41,450 nt of DNA from Phycisphaerales bacterium (GTDB taxonomy: Bacteria; Planctomycetota; Phycisphaerae; Tepidisphaerales; Tepidisphaeraceae). The position numbers were made by a program, and so were the translations under genes. The notes under the pieces are model-generated. The model saw nothing but the letters and a program-made list of their open reading frames with translations, ran no database searches and was not told the origin of the DNA. The DNA lies in NCBI GenBank assembly GCA_020853095.1, contig JADYZN010000010.1, positions 1-41,450 of the forward strand, written 5' to 3'. This document shows, in pieces, positions 339-41,056 of this stretch (position 1 is its first letter; the number at the start of each line of letters is the position of its first letter).

Positions 339-917
339 GTGGCGGCCAAGTCTATCGCCCGCCGCCACCAAGGCCAAGGGAAGCGGGATTGGCCAACGCC
401 CGCCTACTATACCTAGTGGTCAGTCGATCCGCGCCTACCTTCCGTTGCGGCTTTTCCGTTGACAATTGCCGAATTTCGGCGTAAGAACGACCCCATCCCC
501 GCCACGATCGGCGCGTTTCAGACGTTCGATGGCGCGTTTTCGCCGTGCGATGGCGCGTTTCAGAGTCCCGATGGCGCATTTGGGAGGTCCGATGGCGCGT
601 TTTAGAAGCGCGGTGGCGCGTTTTAGAGTCCTGATGGCGCGTTTACGAGTCTAAAACGCGCGTTTTAGAGGCGCGGTGGCGCGTTTTGAAGTTTCAATGG
701 CGCGTTTCGGAGTTCCGATGGCGCGTATTGTTCTCGCGTCTATGCATTTAAAGAACAAGATCGTAATGTGAATTATATGGGAAAAAGGTTGGATTGGCCC
801 CTCTTGTGAATACACCGCAGCATTCGTCGCATCTCCGTGGCTGCTGGAAAGCGCAAACCGGATTGTGCATGGACTGACAGCGTTCAATATTCGTTTCATG
901 TAAGGCGGGACAAGTCT
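339..917. other. 579-bp region without a convincing gene, holding the 21-bp repeat array
   Basis: Open frames cross this stretch on both strands, but they arise because the repeat unit is a multiple of three and lacks stops. None has a ribosome-binding site or a recognisable product. The content is a GC-rich part (339-505), the tandem array (506-737), and a more AT-rich part (738-917) directly before the ATPase gene, where its promoter is expected. Confidence 0.6.
506..737. repeat. 21-bp tandem repeat array (about 11 units)
   Basis: Units begin at 506 (one base long), 528, 549, 570, 591, 612, 633, 654, 675, 696 and 717. From 528 on, the spacing is exactly 21 bp. The conserved half is GATGGCGCGTTTT; the other half varies more. 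The unit starting at 654 has lost its first bases, and its junction with the preceding unit makes an 18-bp perfect palindrome at 651-668 (CTAAAACGCGCGTTTTAG). Twenty-one bp is two helical turns, so each conserved half faces the same side of the DNA. It is also seven codons, so any frame through it reads as heptads (MARFRxx). Spacing and sequence do not fit CRISPR. Confidence 0.92.
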
Positions 918-2429
918 ATGGCGAAAAAAACCAAAAATGAGCGAAACTATGTTTCCCCGAATCACCGTACAACGCCGCCCAAGTTAGGGGATATTGTAGC
1001 CGAAAATGACAGTGAACTGGTCCAAAATTACGTCAACCGGCAGAAATATGTGGACCGAGCCCTTGATCTGAACGATCCGGCGGTTTTCTTCGTCGCGCCC
1101 AAAGGCGTGGGAAAGTCCGCCATCCTGCAGATGGTGCGCCTTTTGCGCAGCAAGGATCAACACCGGATCATCAATATTTCCCCGGACAACTTGGCCTTTT
1201 CCGCATTGGCAAATGTGAACGCCAGCACACCTCTCCTTTCAGAGCCGCAGCGCCAGCAGCATCTTTTTCGAACCCTTTGGGATTACGTCCTCATCATTGA
1301 AATACTCAGCCATGAACACGCCTCATCAGGCGGTATGGTAGACTGGATTGCCAGTTTGTTCGCCGATAAGGACTCCAAGGACGCACGGCGGCTTCTGAAA
1401 ATCACGCTCGACGATCAGGGGAACGGGCATACCTTCACAGAGCGCATTCTGCAATTGGTCAAGGAAGTTGAGCTATCCGGTGATGCCGTGGGCGGAGGTG
1501 TGGCCGGGAAGGTGGTGTTGCACAATGCCAACACCGCAGGCACCCAACAGCTTCAATTGCTCTCATTGGTGAACGCCGTTGCCAGGAAGCTTCCGGGTAG
1601 AGTATCGCATCGGTATCAGGTTCTGATCGACGACTTGGATCAGGACTGGAACGGCACACCGCTGCAGAACGCATTCATTGCCGCCCTTTTTCAATCACTA
1701 CGGAAATTGAATTCTCCTGCGATCCGATTTGCTGTTTCCATGAGGCAGGCCATTTATCGCGATTTGGAGCTTCCCGATCGTGACAAGCTCCGGCCTGCCG
1801 TGATACCTGTGACATGGGATCGGTCCGACGTGAAGCAAATGATTCAAAAGCGCATCGTGAGTGCGCTCAATTGCAGGGAATCCGACGTTTGGACCTCGGT
1901 CTTTGATCCTGCCGCCTTTGATCGAATCTGGCTCCACACCTCAGGTACTCCAAGAGAATTGATCCGAATTGCCGAAATGTCACTGGACAATGCCTTTAGC
2001 TCGCATCACAAGCGCGTGCTGGATGATGATGTGTCGAAGGCCATCCGCACATTCTCTCAGGAACGAATCGAGGATTTAGAGAGCGATTGGAGCTTTAAGT
2101 ATCGCGGTATGGGTTACTTGGTCAAATTCCTCAATGGCTGGCCAAAAGAGTTTCCCGAAAAGAAATTCGAGGATTTGGCCGTGGCCGTCGCCAGTGCGAT
2201 TGAGGAAAAGAAACCAGGTTCCGAACGATACAGTTGGGCGAATGGATTTCTGGAAGACTACCACGAGCTTATCAATGTTTTTTTCCGATGCGGTGTTCTG
2301 CAACTGAAGCTTAGCCGTACGGATGAGCCAAGGCCGTATAATCCAGACGGCAGCGAAGAACTACCGCCGGATTTCTGGCTGGCTATCCACCCGATGTATG
2401 CACCGGCTTTGGGACTTGTTGGCGCATGA
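918..2429 (+). CDS. P-loop ATPase resembling the Sll1717 family
   Basis: This 503-aa protein has a Walker A motif near residues 63-72 (APKGVGKSAI) after a YVDRALDLNDPAVFFV strand, and a Walker B-like strand YQVLIDDLDQDW near residues 234-245. The layout (a short N-terminal tail, then RxxYVDRAL, then FFVAPKGVGKS) is that of Sll1717-like P-loop ATPases, a STAND/KAP-like group of unknown role. I chose the ATG at 918 because AAGGCGGGA lies 7 bases before it; an in-frame ATG at 837 would add 27 residues of poor character. No membrane segment is evident. Codons are less GC-biased than in the neighbours, suggesting transfer. The truncated methyltransferase and repeat array upstream make a defence role conceivable, but nothing in the sequence proves one. 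Confidence 0.75.
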   Translation: MAKKTKNERNYVSPNHRTTPPKLGDIVAENDSELVQNYVNRQKYVDRALDLNDPAVFFVAPKGVGKSAILQMVRLLRSKDQHRIINISPDNLAFSALANVNASTPLLSEPQRQQHLFRTLWDYVLIIEILSHEHASSGGMVDWIASLFADKDSKDARRLLKITLDDQGNGHTFTERILQLVKEVELSGDAVGGGVAGKVVLHNANTAGTQQLQLLSLVNAVARKLPGRVSHRYQVLIDDLDQDWNGTPLQNAFIAALFQSLRKLNSPAIRFAVSMRQAIYRDLELPDRDKLRPAVIPVTWDRSDVKQMIQKRIVSALNCRESDVWTSVFDPAAFDRIWLHTSGTPRELIRIAEMSLDNAFSSHHKRVLDDDVSKAIRTFSQERIEDLESDWSFKYRGMGYLVKFLNGWPKEFPEKKFEDLAVAVASAIEEKKPGSERYSWANGFLEDYHELINVFFRCGVLQLKLSRTDEPRPYNPDGSEELPPDFWLAIHPMYAPALGLVGA

Positions 2430-12342: not shown

Positions 12343-13320
12343 TTATCCCATCGCCTCGACGCCGCCCATGATTTCGGACAGCTCGGTGGTGATCTGCGTC
12401 TGACGGGCACGGTTGTATTGCATGGTCAGCGATTTGACCATCTTGTCGGCGTTGTCGGTGGCACTCTTCATGGCGACCATTCGCGCCACGTGCTCGCTGG
12501 TGGTGGCATCCAAAAACGCCTGGAACAGCGCCGACTTCACCGTCAACGGCAGCAATTCATCCAGCAATTCCCGCGGCGCGGGTGAAAAATCGTAAATCGT
12601 CTGGGTGTCGTAAACATGCGCTGTCGTCTGGACATCCGCCCCGCTCCGTCGCGCATCCATCGCACCAGCCTTGACTTGCGCTTCTTTTTCCGCGACCTGC
12701 TGGGCAATGTGATCGGCCGCCTCGGTCACCCCCGCCAACGGCAGCAACGTCATCACCTCCGGCTTCTGGGTCGAGGTGCTGATGAAGTTCATATAAGCCA
12801 CATGGACCGAATCCAGCGCCCCGGTGGTGAATTGCTGCATGAAAAACTGCGCCACCTGTTCCACGTCTGAAAATCGCGGCAGATCGGCGAACTGGTCATA
12901 ACGCTGGGTGATAACCCGCTTCTGGAAATTGAAGTAGGAAATCCCCTTTTTGCCCGCGACATACAGATCAATGGTCTTGCCGGCCGACTCCTGCTGGCGA
13001 ATGTACGCCGCCGCCGTCCGCAACACGCTGCCATTATATGCCCCGGCCAGCCCTCGGTTGCTGGACATGACGATCAACGCGATCCGCCCGGTCGAATCGG
13101 CCGCGCCCGGCCGGCGCAACAACGGATGCTCGACATTCCCCACGCTGGCCGCCAACTCACGCACCAATTCACGCACCTTCAGCGTGTACGGCTTGGTCCC
13201 CACCGCCCGCTTGAGCGATTTTTGAAACTTCGCCGTCGCGATCATCTGCATCGTCTTGGTGATCTTGCGGATGTTGCGAACCGCCTTGCGGCGTTTGACA
13301 ATCGCTCGTGCCTTGGCCAT
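12343..13320 (-). CDS. atpG: F1F0 ATP synthase gamma subunit
   Basis: The gamma subunit is the rotating shaft of F1. The N-terminal helix is typical (RKAVRNIRKITKTMQMIATAKF, residues about 13-34), the middle Rossmann-like part has SSNRGLAGAYN, and the C-terminal helix ends with MVAMKSATDNADKMV and NRARQTQITTELSEIMGG. At 325 aa it is about 35 residues longer than usual; the extra piece sits near residues 215-250 (VAEKEAQVKAGAMDARRSG...). A weak AAGGA lies ten bases before the ATG. No other atp gene is beside it: the upstream neighbour is divergent and a terminator follows, so it is transcribed alone. In most bacteria atpG lies between atpA and atpD. Confidence 0.93.
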   Translation of the reverse strand: MAKARAIVKRRKAVRNIRKITKTMQMIATAKFQKSLKRAVGTKPYTLKVRELVRELAASVGNVEHPLLRRPGAADSTGRIALIVMSSNRGLAGAYNGSVLRTAAAYIRQQESAGKTIDLYVAGKKGISYFNFQKRVITQRYDQFADLPRFSDVEQVAQFFMQQFTTGALDSVHVAYMNFISTSTQKPEVMTLLPLAGVTEAADHIAQQVAEKEAQVKAGAMDARRSGADVQTTAHVYDTQTIYDFSPAPRELLDELLPLTVKSALFQAFLDATTSEHVARMVAMKSATDNADKMVKSLTMQYNRARQTQITTELSEIMGGVEAMG

Positions 13321-14672: not shown

Positions 14673-16160
14673 TCAGGCCGCCTCAAGCAGCAGTCCGCGC
14701 CGGCCGCCCCATCGCAATTTTCGATAAGACTGAACGGTCACGCTCCCGCTTTGCAGCAATGGTTGAAGCAATTCGCCCCCACGATCGGCCTGTTCCACCA
14801 GCAGCCGCAACCGGGGATGTTGATGGGCGTCGATCGACAGTTGCGGCATCGCCATGGAAATCAACGCCCGGTTTTCGATCAGCCAGCGATACGCCTCGCC
14901 GATGTGCCGAAGGTCCGCCAGTCCATGCGATGCGACCGCCAGCAACGTCACGGCATGATCCCGCCCCACCGCCAGCCGGGCCTGCGGGCAATTGGGAGCG
15001 CGAACCGGGCATTGCACCCATTCCGCCCCGGTATGCTGCAAAAATGCCTGCAAAATGTCGCTTTCCGAATCGTCCGCCGGCAGCTCGATGACATCCGAAT
15101 CACCCGCCATCCCAACGCCACCACCCGCCGACGGGGTGTTGGGAGTTGGCCTCATCGGAATGGGAGCCGATTCGATTGCCGCGACGGCCGGCTTTTTGGG
15201 CGTCGGGGCCGTCGGGATGACCACCTCGGCCAGCATTTGCGGAATGACGGGTGCTTTGTGCATGGCAGGCTCAACTTGATCCACCGCCGGCTGGGGCGAT
15301 TTGTCACGCGGACTGCTTTTGGCCTTGGCCAGGAAGCCGGCGACAATCTGCCATTGCGGGCCGGCCGCCATCTGTGCCTTGTCACGGGTCGGCCGCCAGA
15401 CCAGGACGGTGTGTTCGGAAACATCCGGCGCGCTCTTCACCACCTGCTCGGATTCCACCGCCCAGTTCATGAATTGCCGGCAGACGCTGGTGATTTTACG
15501 GCTCACCCGGCTCGCCTCCTGCTCATCTTGGGCATCCAGCATCACCAGCGACAACGCCGGATGATGCAGATCGGCCAGTCCCTTGAGCGTGCGATAGCTG
15601 GAGACGATCCCATCGTGGTCGCAGGTGGTCAGCAACGACCAGTGATCCACGTCCCGCAGCAGGGTGCGGGCTTCGGGGATGCGCGGATTGGGCAGCAACA
15701 GCAGCCACTGGTCCACATCCCAGTTCAATTCATACAGCGCTTCGGACATCTGCCGCGGCTCGATGCTCAAATCGGCGGCTGATCCTTCGCCGTCGGTCTG
15801 CACGCCGCGATCAAAACACATCAGACGAAACTCGGAAGCATCCACCTCGATCAACCCGACGCGGGTTCCCGAAGCGGCCAGATGACGGGCGACTTCCCTG
15901 GCCCGGTCAAACTGCCGCCCATTGAGATGAGCGCCGATCAGCGCCGTCACCGGTGCGATCTTGTTCTGCGGGTCGGGTGCTGGTTCGTTCCCATAGACCT
16001 GTGCGAATTCCTCGGCCGTCAGGTCGATGCTGACGTCCGGCCGGGGCGGCGGGGTGCGTTGCGGCCGCGATGCGCCGTGGGTTTGACGATCCCGCACGCT
16101 GCTGAGAAACAGGTGGCTGATCTCGCTGAGATTTCGCTTTGGCTTGGGATCATCCGGCAT
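14673..16160 (-). CDS. Degenerate MinD/ParA-like protein of unknown function
   Basis: This 495-aa protein starts at the ATG at 16160 (a TTG at 16178 is possible), 36 bases after the ParA-CBM48 gene. After a disordered basic start with RPQRTPPPRPD, a region from about residue 70 reads REVARHLAASGTRVGLIEVDASEFRLM, like the second strand of MinD/ParA ATPases (LAxxGxRVxLIDxD), but there is no Walker A lysine motif before it. Next come QWLLLLPNPRIPEARTLLRD and SLVMLDAQDEQEASRVSRK, which fit the rest of such a fold. A Pro/Ala-rich linker (about 285-365) leads to an alpha/beta end. I infer a non-hydrolysing partner of the ParA next door. Confidence 0.68.
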   Translation of the reverse strand: MPDDPKPKRNLSEISHLFLSSVRDRQTHGASRPQRTPPPRPDVSIDLTAEEFAQVYGNEPAPDPQNKIAPVTALIGAHLNGRQFDRAREVARHLAASGTRVGLIEVDASEFRLMCFDRGVQTDGEGSAADLSIEPRQMSEALYELNWDVDQWLLLLPNPRIPEARTLLRDVDHWSLLTTCDHDGIVSSYRTLKGLADLHHPALSLVMLDAQDEQEASRVSRKITSVCRQFMNWAVESEQVVKSAPDVSEHTVLVWRPTRDKAQMAAGPQWQIVAGFLAKAKSSPRDKSPQPAVDQVEPAMHKAPVIPQMLAEVVIPTAPTPKKPAVAAIESAPIPMRPTPNTPSAGGGVGMAGDSDVIELPADDSESDILQAFLQHTGAEWVQCPVRAPNCPQARLAVGRDHAVTLLAVASHGLADLRHIGEAYRWLIENRALISMAMPQLSIDAHQHPRLRLLVEQADRGGELLQPLLQSGSVTVQSYRKLRWGGRRGLLLEAA

Positions 16161-16196: not shown

Positions 16197-17507
16197 TCAA
16201 TCGACTTCAACGATGTTGTTCAATTCGCCAAACTGGTTGGCCTCGACGTAACTGTTGTGCGGATCGGTCGTCCATTGCCCGTCCACGATGAACCGGTAAC
16301 GATACCGTCCCGGCCGCAACGGCAGGCTCATGAACCATTCGCCCGGCTTGCCGCTGGTCCGCATCGGCGTGGAAACCGACGACCAGTTGTTGAAATCGCC
16401 CGCGATCAACACGTTTTTGGCCGCCTCAAATCGAGCCGAGAAAACAACCTCCGCCCCGATGCGTTTCACGCCGTAAAATGCGTCGATTTTCTCCCGCGTG
16501 CTCCGCGCCGCGGGGGTGGCCGCCGGCTCGGGCGCATCGGTCTGTTCCTCCGATTCGGCGAACCGGCCGCCGATTTTCTCGCTTGTCTTCTCCTGCACCT
16601 TGACCGATTCCACCGGCGCTGTCGTGGGAACCGTGTTGCGGCCGAACTGGAAATTGGTCAGTTGGGCCAGTTGCTTGGCGCGCTGCACCAGCTCCGCCGG
16701 CCGCGAAAGCTTCTCCACCACGACCGGCTCGATGTCGACGGGGCGATCCCCCATCAATTCACGCGCCAGATTCACGAAATCCTTGTATCCCCGGCTCCCC
16801 GGATCGTACTCGGTGATCGGCTGGCCAAAACTGGCGGCTTCCTTGAGCTTGGTGTTGAAATTGACCGTGCTCTCCGTCAGGTATTCGCGGAATTTGCTCC
16901 GCAGTTCCGACAACACCTCGCGGGCCAGCTTCGTGCGCGTGTCGTACAACGTCGGCAGCACGCGGATGAGAATCTCCTTGTCGCAGCGGTCGCGCAGCTC
17001 CTCCAGCGTCTCCATCATCTTGGTCAGCCCGTGCAGACTGAAAAATCCCGTCTCCACCGGCACCAGGCATTCATCGCACGCCCGCAGCGCGTTGAACGTC
17101 AGCAACCCCACGCTGGGCGGGCAGTCGATGATCGCCCAGTCGTAATTGCCGCTCACCTTCTCCAGCGCCTCGCGCAGTCGATCCTCACGCCCCGGCCGGC
17201 CGGCGAAAACCTGCTCAAATGCCGCCAGTCGAATGTTGGAGGGCGCCAGATCGAAATTGCTGGCGATCTGCCAGACGATCTCATTGACCCGCGCCGTGGC
17301 CCCATCCCGCTCTTCAAGCAACGCATCGTAGATCGTGCGCTCAATCTGGTCTTCTGGAACCGCCAGGCCGACACCGCAATGGCCCTGCGGGTCCATGTCC
17401 ACAAGCAACGCTCTTTGCCCCAGACGTGCCAGGCAGGCGGCCAGATTGATGCTGGTCGTCGTTTTCCCACAACCGCCCTTCTGGTTGATAATGGCGATGG
17501 TTCGCAT
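16197..17507 (-). CDS. ParA-family ATPase fused to a C-terminal glycogen-binding domain
   Basis: This 436-aa protein has the deviant Walker A KGGCGKT at residues 10-16, LLVDMDPQGHCGVGL, and DWAIIDCPPSVGLLTFNALR, so residues 1-255 are a complete Soj/ParA ATPase. Such proteins position chromosomes, plasmids or cell-surface machines on the nucleoid. After a charged linker, residues about 356-436 form a CBM48/AMPK1-type beta-sandwich: VLIAGDFNNWS, PLRPGRYRYRFIVDGQW and DPHNSYVEANQFGELNNIVEV are the hallmark strands of glycogen-binding modules. The ATG at 17507 has AAGGAAGG nine bases before it; a TTG at 17540 is less likely. No parB follows, so a housekeeping partition role is doubtful. The fusion is clear from the sequence; its purpose is not. 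Confidence 0.9.
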   Translation of the reverse strand: MRTIAIINQKGGCGKTTTSINLAACLARLGQRALLVDMDPQGHCGVGLAVPEDQIERTIYDALLEERDGATARVNEIVWQIASNFDLAPSNIRLAAFEQVFAGRPGREDRLREALEKVSGNYDWAIIDCPPSVGLLTFNALRACDECLVPVETGFFSLHGLTKMMETLEELRDRCDKEILIRVLPTLYDTRTKLAREVLSELRSKFREYLTESTVNFNTKLKEAASFGQPITEYDPGSRGYKDFVNLARELMGDRPVDIEPVVVEKLSRPAELVQRAKQLAQLTNFQFGRNTVPTTAPVESVKVQEKTSEKIGGRFAESEEQTDAPEPAATPAARSTREKIDAFYGVKRIGAEVVFSARFEAAKNVLIAGDFNNWSSVSTPMRTSGKPGEWFMSLPLRPGRYRYRFIVDGQWTTDPHNSYVEANQFGELNNIVEVD

Positions 17508-17911: not shown

Positions 17912-19003
17912 ATGCGATGCGTCGTTTTTGCGGCCATGACGGGTACTTTATTCGTCACCGGCCTGCAGGCTTCATGGGCGGCCGCCCAACCCGACCAACG
18001 GACCATGACGGCCACAATCCGTGATTTCCGTGGGGCATTTGACATCTCGGGCAACCCCAACCCCGATGGCCATCCCGACTTTGAACAGTTTGATTTCAGG
18101 CCGGATGGATTTGGCAAGCCGGATGTCGCCATCTCCGCCCTGCCCCCGTTTTATACCATCACCTTCAAAGACCGCTTCCCCAAGGAATATTTCCCTCCCA
18201 CGATCAATCCGCATGACATTGATCCCTCCTATCCAAACCTCGACATCAGCACCGGCGGCAACGACCAAACCCGCAAGGTCGAGCCGGGCATCGTCGAATC
18301 AACATTGGGACTCGATCGCAATCCCGTCTACAAAGGCCAATCCAATCCAGGGTTTTACAAATCCACCCACGATGCGGCCAGATTCAACCAGTGGTACAAC
18401 GACACAACCGATGTCAATCTGTCGCACGACATCGACCTGACGCTGGTCGATAACGACAGCGATGGCATTTTCACCTTGTCCGACCAGACCTTTTTCCCGC
18501 TGGACAACCCCGCGGTCATCGCCGGCGACATCGGCGGCGCGGACACCGGCGGATTCACCGGGTACGGCAATGAAGGCCGCGATCACAATTACAGCTTCAC
18601 CATGGAGTTGCACGACACCCCGGTCTACAACGGCGGCGAAACGTTCCGGTTTGTCGGCGATGACGATGTATTCCTGTTCATCAACGGCCAACTGGTGATG
18701 GACCTCGGCGGCGTTCACAACCCACTGCCCGAAGGCAGTCCCTTTGTGGTGAACCTGGACGATCTGGGTTTGACCAAGGGACAGGCATTTGATTTTGACT
18801 TCTTCTACGCCGAGCGCAACACGAGCAAATCCACCATCTTGATGGAAACCTCGATCCTGCTGGGCGAAGGGGGTGGCACTCCCCCGCCGCCCCCGCCTCC
18901 TCCTCCGCCGCCGGCCATCCCCCTGCCCGCAGCGGCATGGATGGCGCTCAGCGCCCTGGGTGGCCTTGGCGTGGTGTCCAAACTTCGCCGGCGTCTCTCA
19001 TAA
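17912..19003 (+). CDS. Secreted fibro-slime domain protein with PEP-CTERM-type sorting tail
   Basis: This 363-aa protein has a signal peptide (VFAAMTGTLFVTGLQASWAAA), then a fibro-slime/PA14-like region with the features YNDTTDVNLS, YSFTMELHDTPVY, FRFVGDDDVFLFINGQLVMDLGG and FDFFYAERN. The GDDDVFLFINGQLVMDLGGVH core is the carbohydrate- or calcium-binding loop of PA14-like folds. After 11 consecutive prolines comes IPLPAAAWMALSALGGLG, a membrane segment and an Arg-rich end: a PEP-CTERM variant recognised by an exosortase that would anchor or release it at the surface. No exosortase is in the window. AAAGGAG stands seven bases before the ATG, and a strong terminator follows. It is a single-gene unit. 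Confidence 0.88.
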   Translation: MRCVVFAAMTGTLFVTGLQASWAAAQPDQRTMTATIRDFRGAFDISGNPNPDGHPDFEQFDFRPDGFGKPDVAISALPPFYTITFKDRFPKEYFPPTINPHDIDPSYPNLDISTGGNDQTRKVEPGIVESTLGLDRNPVYKGQSNPGFYKSTHDAARFNQWYNDTTDVNLSHDIDLTLVDNDSDGIFTLSDQTFFPLDNPAVIAGDIGGADTGGFTGYGNEGRDHNYSFTMELHDTPVYNGGETFRFVGDDDVFLFINGQLVMDLGGVHNPLPEGSPFVVNLDDLGLTKGQAFDFDFFYAERNTSKSTILMETSILLGEGGGTPPPPPPPPPPPAIPLPAAAWMALSALGGLGVVSKLRRRLS

Positions 19004-40985: not shown

Positions 40986-41056
40986 TGGAGCCATGGGGAT
41001 TTGAACCCCAAATTCCACCATGCCATGGTGGCGTGATCCCATTTCACTATGGCCCC
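40986..41056 (-). tRNA. tRNA-Ala (anticodon GGC)
   Basis: On the minus strand the acceptor arms GGGGCCA and TGGCTCC pair (one G-T), with discriminator A. The D arm is GTGA/TCAC, the anticodon arm CCACC-ATGGCAT-GGTGG gives anticodon GGC, and the T arm is TGGGG-TTCAAAT-CCCCA. The variable loop has four bases. The length is 71 bases; CCA is not encoded. Confidence 0.95.

Follow-up and report, generated by a model that had tools for sequence, protein, structure and literature searches.

Many Phycisphaerae encode a ParA-type ATPase whose C-terminal tail is a predicted glycogen-binding module. We tentatively propose that this fusion protein is a nucleoid-bound ParA that binds alpha-glucan itself and that positions or partitions glycogen. 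Both halves belong to known families; what is new is their combination, which is absent from the open literature that we searched (among open-licence papers, we found none that describes a glycogen-binding tail attached to a ParA). Known cargoes of ParA/MinD ATPases include chromosomes, plasmids, carboxysomes, flagella, and chemotaxis arrays, which are usually positioned via a separate adaptor. The fusion gene lies in a 41,450-nucleotide stretch of DNA from a Phycisphaerales bacterium (GenBank assembly GCA_020853095.1, contig JADYZN010000010.1), and we will call this whole stretch the window.

A ParA ATPase with an AMPK-like tail

The fusion gene (16197..17507 on the reverse strand, with the ATG at 17507 and the stop at 16197) encodes 436 amino acids. 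An earlier reading of the DNA without database searches (the sequence-only reading) took the protein for a complete ParA ATPase followed by a CBM48/AMPK1-like tail. This was right: Pfam's AAA_31 model matches residues 1–179 (E = 5e-52), AMPK1_CBM matches residues 362–436 (E = 1e-16; 61.2 bits, with a gathering score of 26.8), and CBM_48, the other model that was suggested for checking the tail, is also above its cut-off. When the 97-amino-acid tail was compared to PDB using phmmer, the top hit was AMPK beta-1 (1z0n, 4e-12), followed by SEX4, a branching enzyme, and pullulanase. The E-values from Pfam and PDB rule out a chance likeness.

The Soj/ParA ATPase domain covers residues 1–255 (16743..17507, reverse strand), as judged by AAA_31 and by a VIA Z of 34 to Soj. 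It has the deviant Walker A motif KGGCGKTT (17457..17480, reverse strand), with the signature lysine K10 and the P-loop lysine K15, as well as the Walker A' aspartate and the Walker B sequence DCPPS (residues 124–128). The columns of K10, K15, and D39 are invariant in all 81 aligned sequences. VIA aligns 248 residues to Soj with an rmsd of 2.0 (Z 34.7) and gives lower Z on McdA (29), MinD (28), and BcsQ (25); Foldseek finds 9a6n at 6e-27. Identity to ParA/Soj structures is around 40% (34–42%, with Z of 32–35, for Thermus Soj 1wcv/2bek, H. pylori Soj 6iub, and ParA 8ray).

Soj/ParA proteins and the fusion thus have the ATPase fold in common, along with the deviant Walker A and both DNA-binding basic positions (see below), but the fusion adds a C-terminal helix, a linker, and a glycan-binding module. 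The helix past the ATPase domain (residues 266–288; 16644..16712, reverse strand) is conserved by column counts, with A277 invariant, and AlphaFold predicts a helix at 269–288. It is followed by a disordered linker (residues 289–343; 16479..16643, reverse strand), with pLDDT below 50 at 289–331; across the homologues, the spacer between the domains varies from 53 to 148 amino acids. The predicted AMPK1_CBM/CBM48 module (16200..16478, reverse strand) forms residues 344–436 and includes W375, R405, W412, F426, and N430. In the AlphaFold model (mean pLDDT 83.8, pTM 0.60), the ATPase and the beta-sandwich are confident.

Conserved residues suggest binding to DNA and to alpha-glucan

By aligning the fusion to Thermus Soj, we placed R191 and K220 as the DNA-binding positions. 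We take these to correspond to R189 and R218 of B. subtilis Soj, which Hester and Lutkenhaus reportedly described in 2007 as its DNA-binding residues. R191 is arginine in 81/81 sequences, while K220 is lysine in 79 and arginine in the other two. DNA binding by Soj needs two arginines (PMC7229837). Given this conservation and what is known of the family, ATP-bound dimers of the fusion probably bind DNA.

The tail shares with the CBM48 of the AMPK beta subunit its Pfam family, its pair of tryptophans, a basic contact residue, and the FNNW...DGQW...NN anatomy; it differs in its setting (a ParA rather than the regulatory subunit of a kinase) and at three contact positions. Human AMP kinase has this kind of module too. 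The sequence-only reading had asked whether the tail might lack the residues that contact glucan. Instead, the equivalents of AMPK's W100 (W375) and W133 (W412) are tryptophan in 81 of 81 sequences, the equivalent of K126 (R405) is always arginine, and the equivalent of L146 is always phenylalanine or tyrosine. The equivalent of N150, which we presume to be another glucan contact, is asparagine in 77 of the 81. The equivalent of T148 is mostly acidic (glutamate in 65, aspartate in 8, and glycine in 8). In AMPK beta-1, W100, K126, W133, L146, and T148 touch beta-cyclodextrin, and mutants at these positions bind glycogen markedly less (PMC2642990); in cells, the T148D variant fails to bind glycogen (PMC6274970). 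So, the tail retains the basic residue together with its aromatic platform, and it differs at a position that can turn binding off in AMPK. Overall, the contact residues make it likely, if not certain, that the tail binds alpha-glucan, and their conservation suggests that it could bind glycogen particles.

The fusion is found across the Phycisphaerae

The sequence-only reading had worried that the fusion might be confined to one assembly with a misassembled junction, and it suggested a survey of ParA proteins with this kind of tail. In a scan with one genome per species, we found 165 encoded relatives and retained the best 80. These 80 of 165 align along nearly the entire length of the protein, and nearly all are from metagenome-assembled genomes of Phycisphaerae, Phycisphaerales, or Sedimentisphaerales, with a few from complete chromosomes. 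Among 150 sampled Phycisphaerae genomes, at least 84 encode the fusion, almost always as a single copy. This count includes 80 genomes in which a single profile match spans both the ATPase and the tail (in one of them, the match begins at a contig edge) and four that we checked directly and that have fusions too (G001, G011, G044, and G051). Because the same fusion is present at 80 independent loci (the best 80 of 165) and in at least 84 of 150 genomes of the class, we reject misassembly or a peculiarity of one genome.

We found no fusion in other classes of the phylum: 21 of 294 genomes from the phylum have a match at E ≤ 1e-85, a threshold that could miss a more diverged fusion outside Phycisphaerae, and all 21 are Phycisphaerae. 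Searching 72,556 plasmid records for the tail gave no match either, so we also reject the idea that the fusion is a plasmid-borne partition module.

Some orthologues have lost the tail or parts of it. The orthologues from G084 and G125 (both of family f21) and from G066 have no recognisable tail. In the tails from G137 and G039, one or both of the tryptophans are missing; G137 lacks the second. Together, these orthologues are a natural series of losses that can be used as a test set. We also noticed a different ParA of the class (G081:C65, locus L128) that has an acidic low-complexity C-terminal tail of about 180 amino acids in place of the CBM.

The fusion is most likely an additional ParA

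ParABS partition systems have parB and parS next to parA. We found no ParB among the scanned neighbours of the fusion, which agrees with the sequence-only reading. In the fusion's own genome, the genes for ParB (with an LGRGLSSLI box), for Soj, and for the fusion each have a contig to themselves. The chromosomal ParB (L105, 4106–5155 on the reverse strand) is on contig C39, which has no ParA match, and the fusion is on contig C10. A separate Soj-like ParA is present in 21 of the 22 genomes that we tested, and ParB is present in 15 of 15. In a FastTree analysis of the ParA domains, a split with a support of 0.999 separates the fusions and their tail-less orthologues from all other ParAs of these genomes, the Soj-like ones included. 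Because the fusion forms its own clan, because there is a separate Soj-like ParA, and because ParB, Soj, and the fusion are on different contigs, the fusion is most likely an additional ParA, not the chromosomal one.

We also considered that the fusion might be the chromosomal ParA after all, with the unlinked ParB as its partner and a tail that was added secondarily. This would fit with the high identity of its ATPase to Soj and with ParB having no ParA beside it in this genome. It seems very improbable, however: the distinct Soj-like ParA that all but one of the 22 tested genomes have weakens it, Soj and the fusions are separate clans, and members of the class that lack the fusion retain both Soj and ParB.

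The separate Soj and the unlinked ParB leave the fusion free for other cargo. Alternatively, with Soj serving the chromosome, the fusion might be a glycogen sensor: glucan on the tail would alter the ParA ATPase cycle allosterically, and carbon reserves would in this way control how the chromosome is organised or how the cell divides. Glycogen inhibits AMPK via the CBM of its beta subunit. AMPK's CBM, a member of the same family as the tail, is a regulatory sensor besides a tether (PMC2642990), and contact within the molecule would be permitted by the linker, which is long, and by the conserved helix beside the ATPase. However, the AlphaFold model has no confident contact between the tail and the ATPase (pLDDT is below 50 in the linker and pTM is 0.60), and no division or replication gene is conserved near the fusion at the best 80 of 165 loci. 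We think that a sensor is unlikely.

A candidate partner protein

The only conserved neighbour of the fusion is the downstream gene (14673..16160 on the reverse strand; 495 amino acids from its ATG), which begins 36 bp past the stop codon of the ParA gene. It adjoins the fusion in 31 of 80 loci (the best 80 of 165). The sequence-only reading described it as degenerate and MinD-like, correctly, since its middle domain (residues 66–284; 15309..15965, reverse strand) has the FlhG/FleN fold (VIA Z 13.7 to FlhG, 4rz2) and lacks Walker A. No Pfam or NCBIfam model matches the protein. Unlike FlhG/FleN, it has no P-loop, it has another motif at its N-terminus, and it has an additional C-terminal alpha/beta domain (residues 357–492; 14685..15092, reverse strand), which was identified from an AlphaFold model.

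An alignment of homologues shows that the N-terminal peptide (KPKRNLSEISHLFLSSVRDR...RPQRTPP; 16041..16160, reverse strand) is the best-conserved part of this protein, with a basic stretch, an amphipathic R-x-L-x-x-I-S-H-L-F-L-S, and then R-P-x-R-x-P-P. The partners of ParA/MinD proteins commonly activate them via a charged, disordered N-terminus (PMC10241942). Because of this similarity, the downstream protein is plausibly an activator of the fusion's ATPase, and it is the best candidate. At loci that lack this gene, we searched the other genes near the fusion for the N-terminal motif and found just unrelated hydrophobic matches.

Glycogen genes and the fusion

The genome that encodes the fusion also encodes a eukaryote-type glycogen synthase of family GT3 (PF05693, 1e-218). 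It has an alpha-glucan phosphorylase as well (TIGR02094, 876 bits versus a cut-off of 191.7). The classical enzymes GlgA and GlgB do not account for a glucan: a GT5-type GlgA meets the threshold in 3 of 150 genomes of the class and GlgB in 20 of 150, with this genome in neither set (among branching enzymes, the search covered the GlgB type). About half of the sampled class (77/150 genomes) has GT3, and hardly any of it has a GT5-type GlgA. (A 2024 review notes GT3 synthases in the PVC group; PMC11046441.) In a panel of 59 genomes, divergent GT5-like proteins are found chiefly where GT3 is missing; these are weak matches and may be other glycosyltransferases.

If the cargo is glycogen, then the fusion might be expected to track glycogen synthase, which the data do not support. 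Across the 150 genomes, the fusion is not associated with GT3 (40/84 genomes with the fusion versus 37/66 of the others, p = 0.33), and genomes from families f5 and f19 have GT3 while the fusion is mostly absent. A GT35 match (a short phosphorylase) is present in 48 of the 59 genomes from the panel. In this hand-picked panel, genomes with the fusion have phosphorylase somewhat more often than those without (40/45 versus 8/14, p = 0.015, uncorrected for kinship). There is no conserved neighbourhood of glycogen genes either: in flanks that reach as far as 8 kb on each side of the best 80 of 165 loci, we found no GT3 or phosphorylase genes. Taken together, the results for GT3, phosphorylase, and the neighbourhoods allow an alpha-glucan cargo and do not single it out.

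Individual genomes point both ways. G137, whose tail lacks the second tryptophan, has no match to GT3, GT5-like proteins, or phosphorylase, which fits with a role in glucan binding; the missing tail of G066 and the altered tail of G039, two genomes that do have GT3, are at odds with it. Both observations are anecdotal. Another possibility is that the tail is a glycan-binding fold that was re-used for docking to a protein (a glucan enzyme, for example) instead of glucan, with that enzyme complex as the cargo. The acidic residue that most members have at the T148 position would fit with docking, and so would the retention of the fusion in genomes without GT3, including G137 without any of the synthase or phosphorylase genes that we tested for. 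But a tail that serves purely for docking would not be expected to keep the pair of sugar-contacting tryptophans, the basic residue, and the aromatic residue in 81 sequences, and G137, the fusion-positive genome that lacks the tested glycogen genes, itself lacks the second tryptophan. Docking to a protein is doubtful, in our view.

Another polysaccharide-related ATPase from the ParA/MinD group is BcsQ, which is involved in cellulose secretion. Similarly, the ATPase of the fusion might place a site of glucan or exopolysaccharide synthesis, with the tail recognising the nascent polymer. Pfam's CBP_BcsQ does match the fusion protein (3e-14), and there are some sugar-nucleotide genes upstream of the fusion in the window. 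However, those neighbours are not conserved at the other loci (best 80 of 165), and the ATPase resembles Soj (Z 34, around 40% identity) far more closely than it does BcsQ (Z 25, 19% identity). Also, CBM48 is an alpha-glucan module, while BcsQ has no carbohydrate-binding module and is not linked to alpha-glucan. This makes a BcsQ-like organiser quite unlikely.

Other features of the window include a gene divergent from the ParA gene (17912–19003, forward strand), whose secreted product has a fibro-slime domain (TIGR02148) as well as a weak VPLPA-CTERM sorting signal. The gamma subunit of ATP synthase (atpG, 12343–13320, reverse strand) stands alone, with no atpA or atpD recognised in the adjoining genes that we scanned. 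A 530-amino-acid open reading frame (837–2429, forward strand) has a weak ORC-CDC6-like match under the Pfam cut-off. Rfam matches the window just once, at a tRNA gene (40986–41056, reverse strand).

A proposed role for the fusion

We return to our tentative proposal that the fusion positions or partitions glycogen. The fusion would be a dedicated positioning ATPase of the ParA type with a built-in cargo adaptor. ATP-bound dimers would use the conserved basic positions to coat the nucleoid, and the CBM48/AMPK-type tail, on its flexible linker, would grip the alpha-1,4-glucan chains of glycogen particles. Numerous weak contacts between tails and glucan would tether glycogen to the nucleoid, so that it spreads or is co-partitioned at division. 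A partner would trigger ATP turnover and release; in this genome, the partner would most likely be the downstream pseudo-MinD, which may act on the fusion's ATPase by its basic amphipathic N-terminal peptide.

The nearest parallels are positioning systems of the McdA/McdB type: as proposed, the fusion would likewise move a metabolic body other than DNA from the nucleoid. In those systems, cargo is linked by a separate partner (such as McdB or ParB), whereas the fusion has its module on the ATPase itself. McdAB-like systems have a partner with a charged N-terminal peptide that binds the ATPase; the downstream protein, with its conserved basic amphipathic N-terminus, is a candidate for this role, but its gene is adjacent at just 31 of 80 loci (best 80 of 165).

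The sequence-only reading also suggested that the ParA positions glycogen granules or another polysaccharide body. The domains, the contact residues, and the glycogen genes in its own genome support this idea, while the lack of tracking with GT3 and the acidic T148 position do not. As we see it, the points that argue against glycogen positioning are the presence of the fusion independently of GT3, the flanks without GT3 or phosphorylase genes, the acidic residue at T148 in 73 of 81 sequences, the partner's presence at just 31 of 80 loci (best 80 of 165), the orthologues without a tail (G084, G125, and G066) or without tryptophan contacts (G137 and G039), and the lack of GlgB in the fusion's own genome.

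Our findings suggest that Phycisphaerae with the fusion may tether glycogen to the chromosome or distribute it over the chromosome. Fused binding to the nucleoid and to glucan, with a pseudo-MinD as the activator, might possibly be the first described system for segregating a storage polysaccharide, although we hold this more loosely than the positioning role itself. The fusion raises a question that can be tested: is glycogen actively distributed to daughter cells, or does glycogen content regulate a ParA? If our proposal is true, then the range of ParA cargoes extends to a storage polysaccharide, with cargo binding built into the motor.
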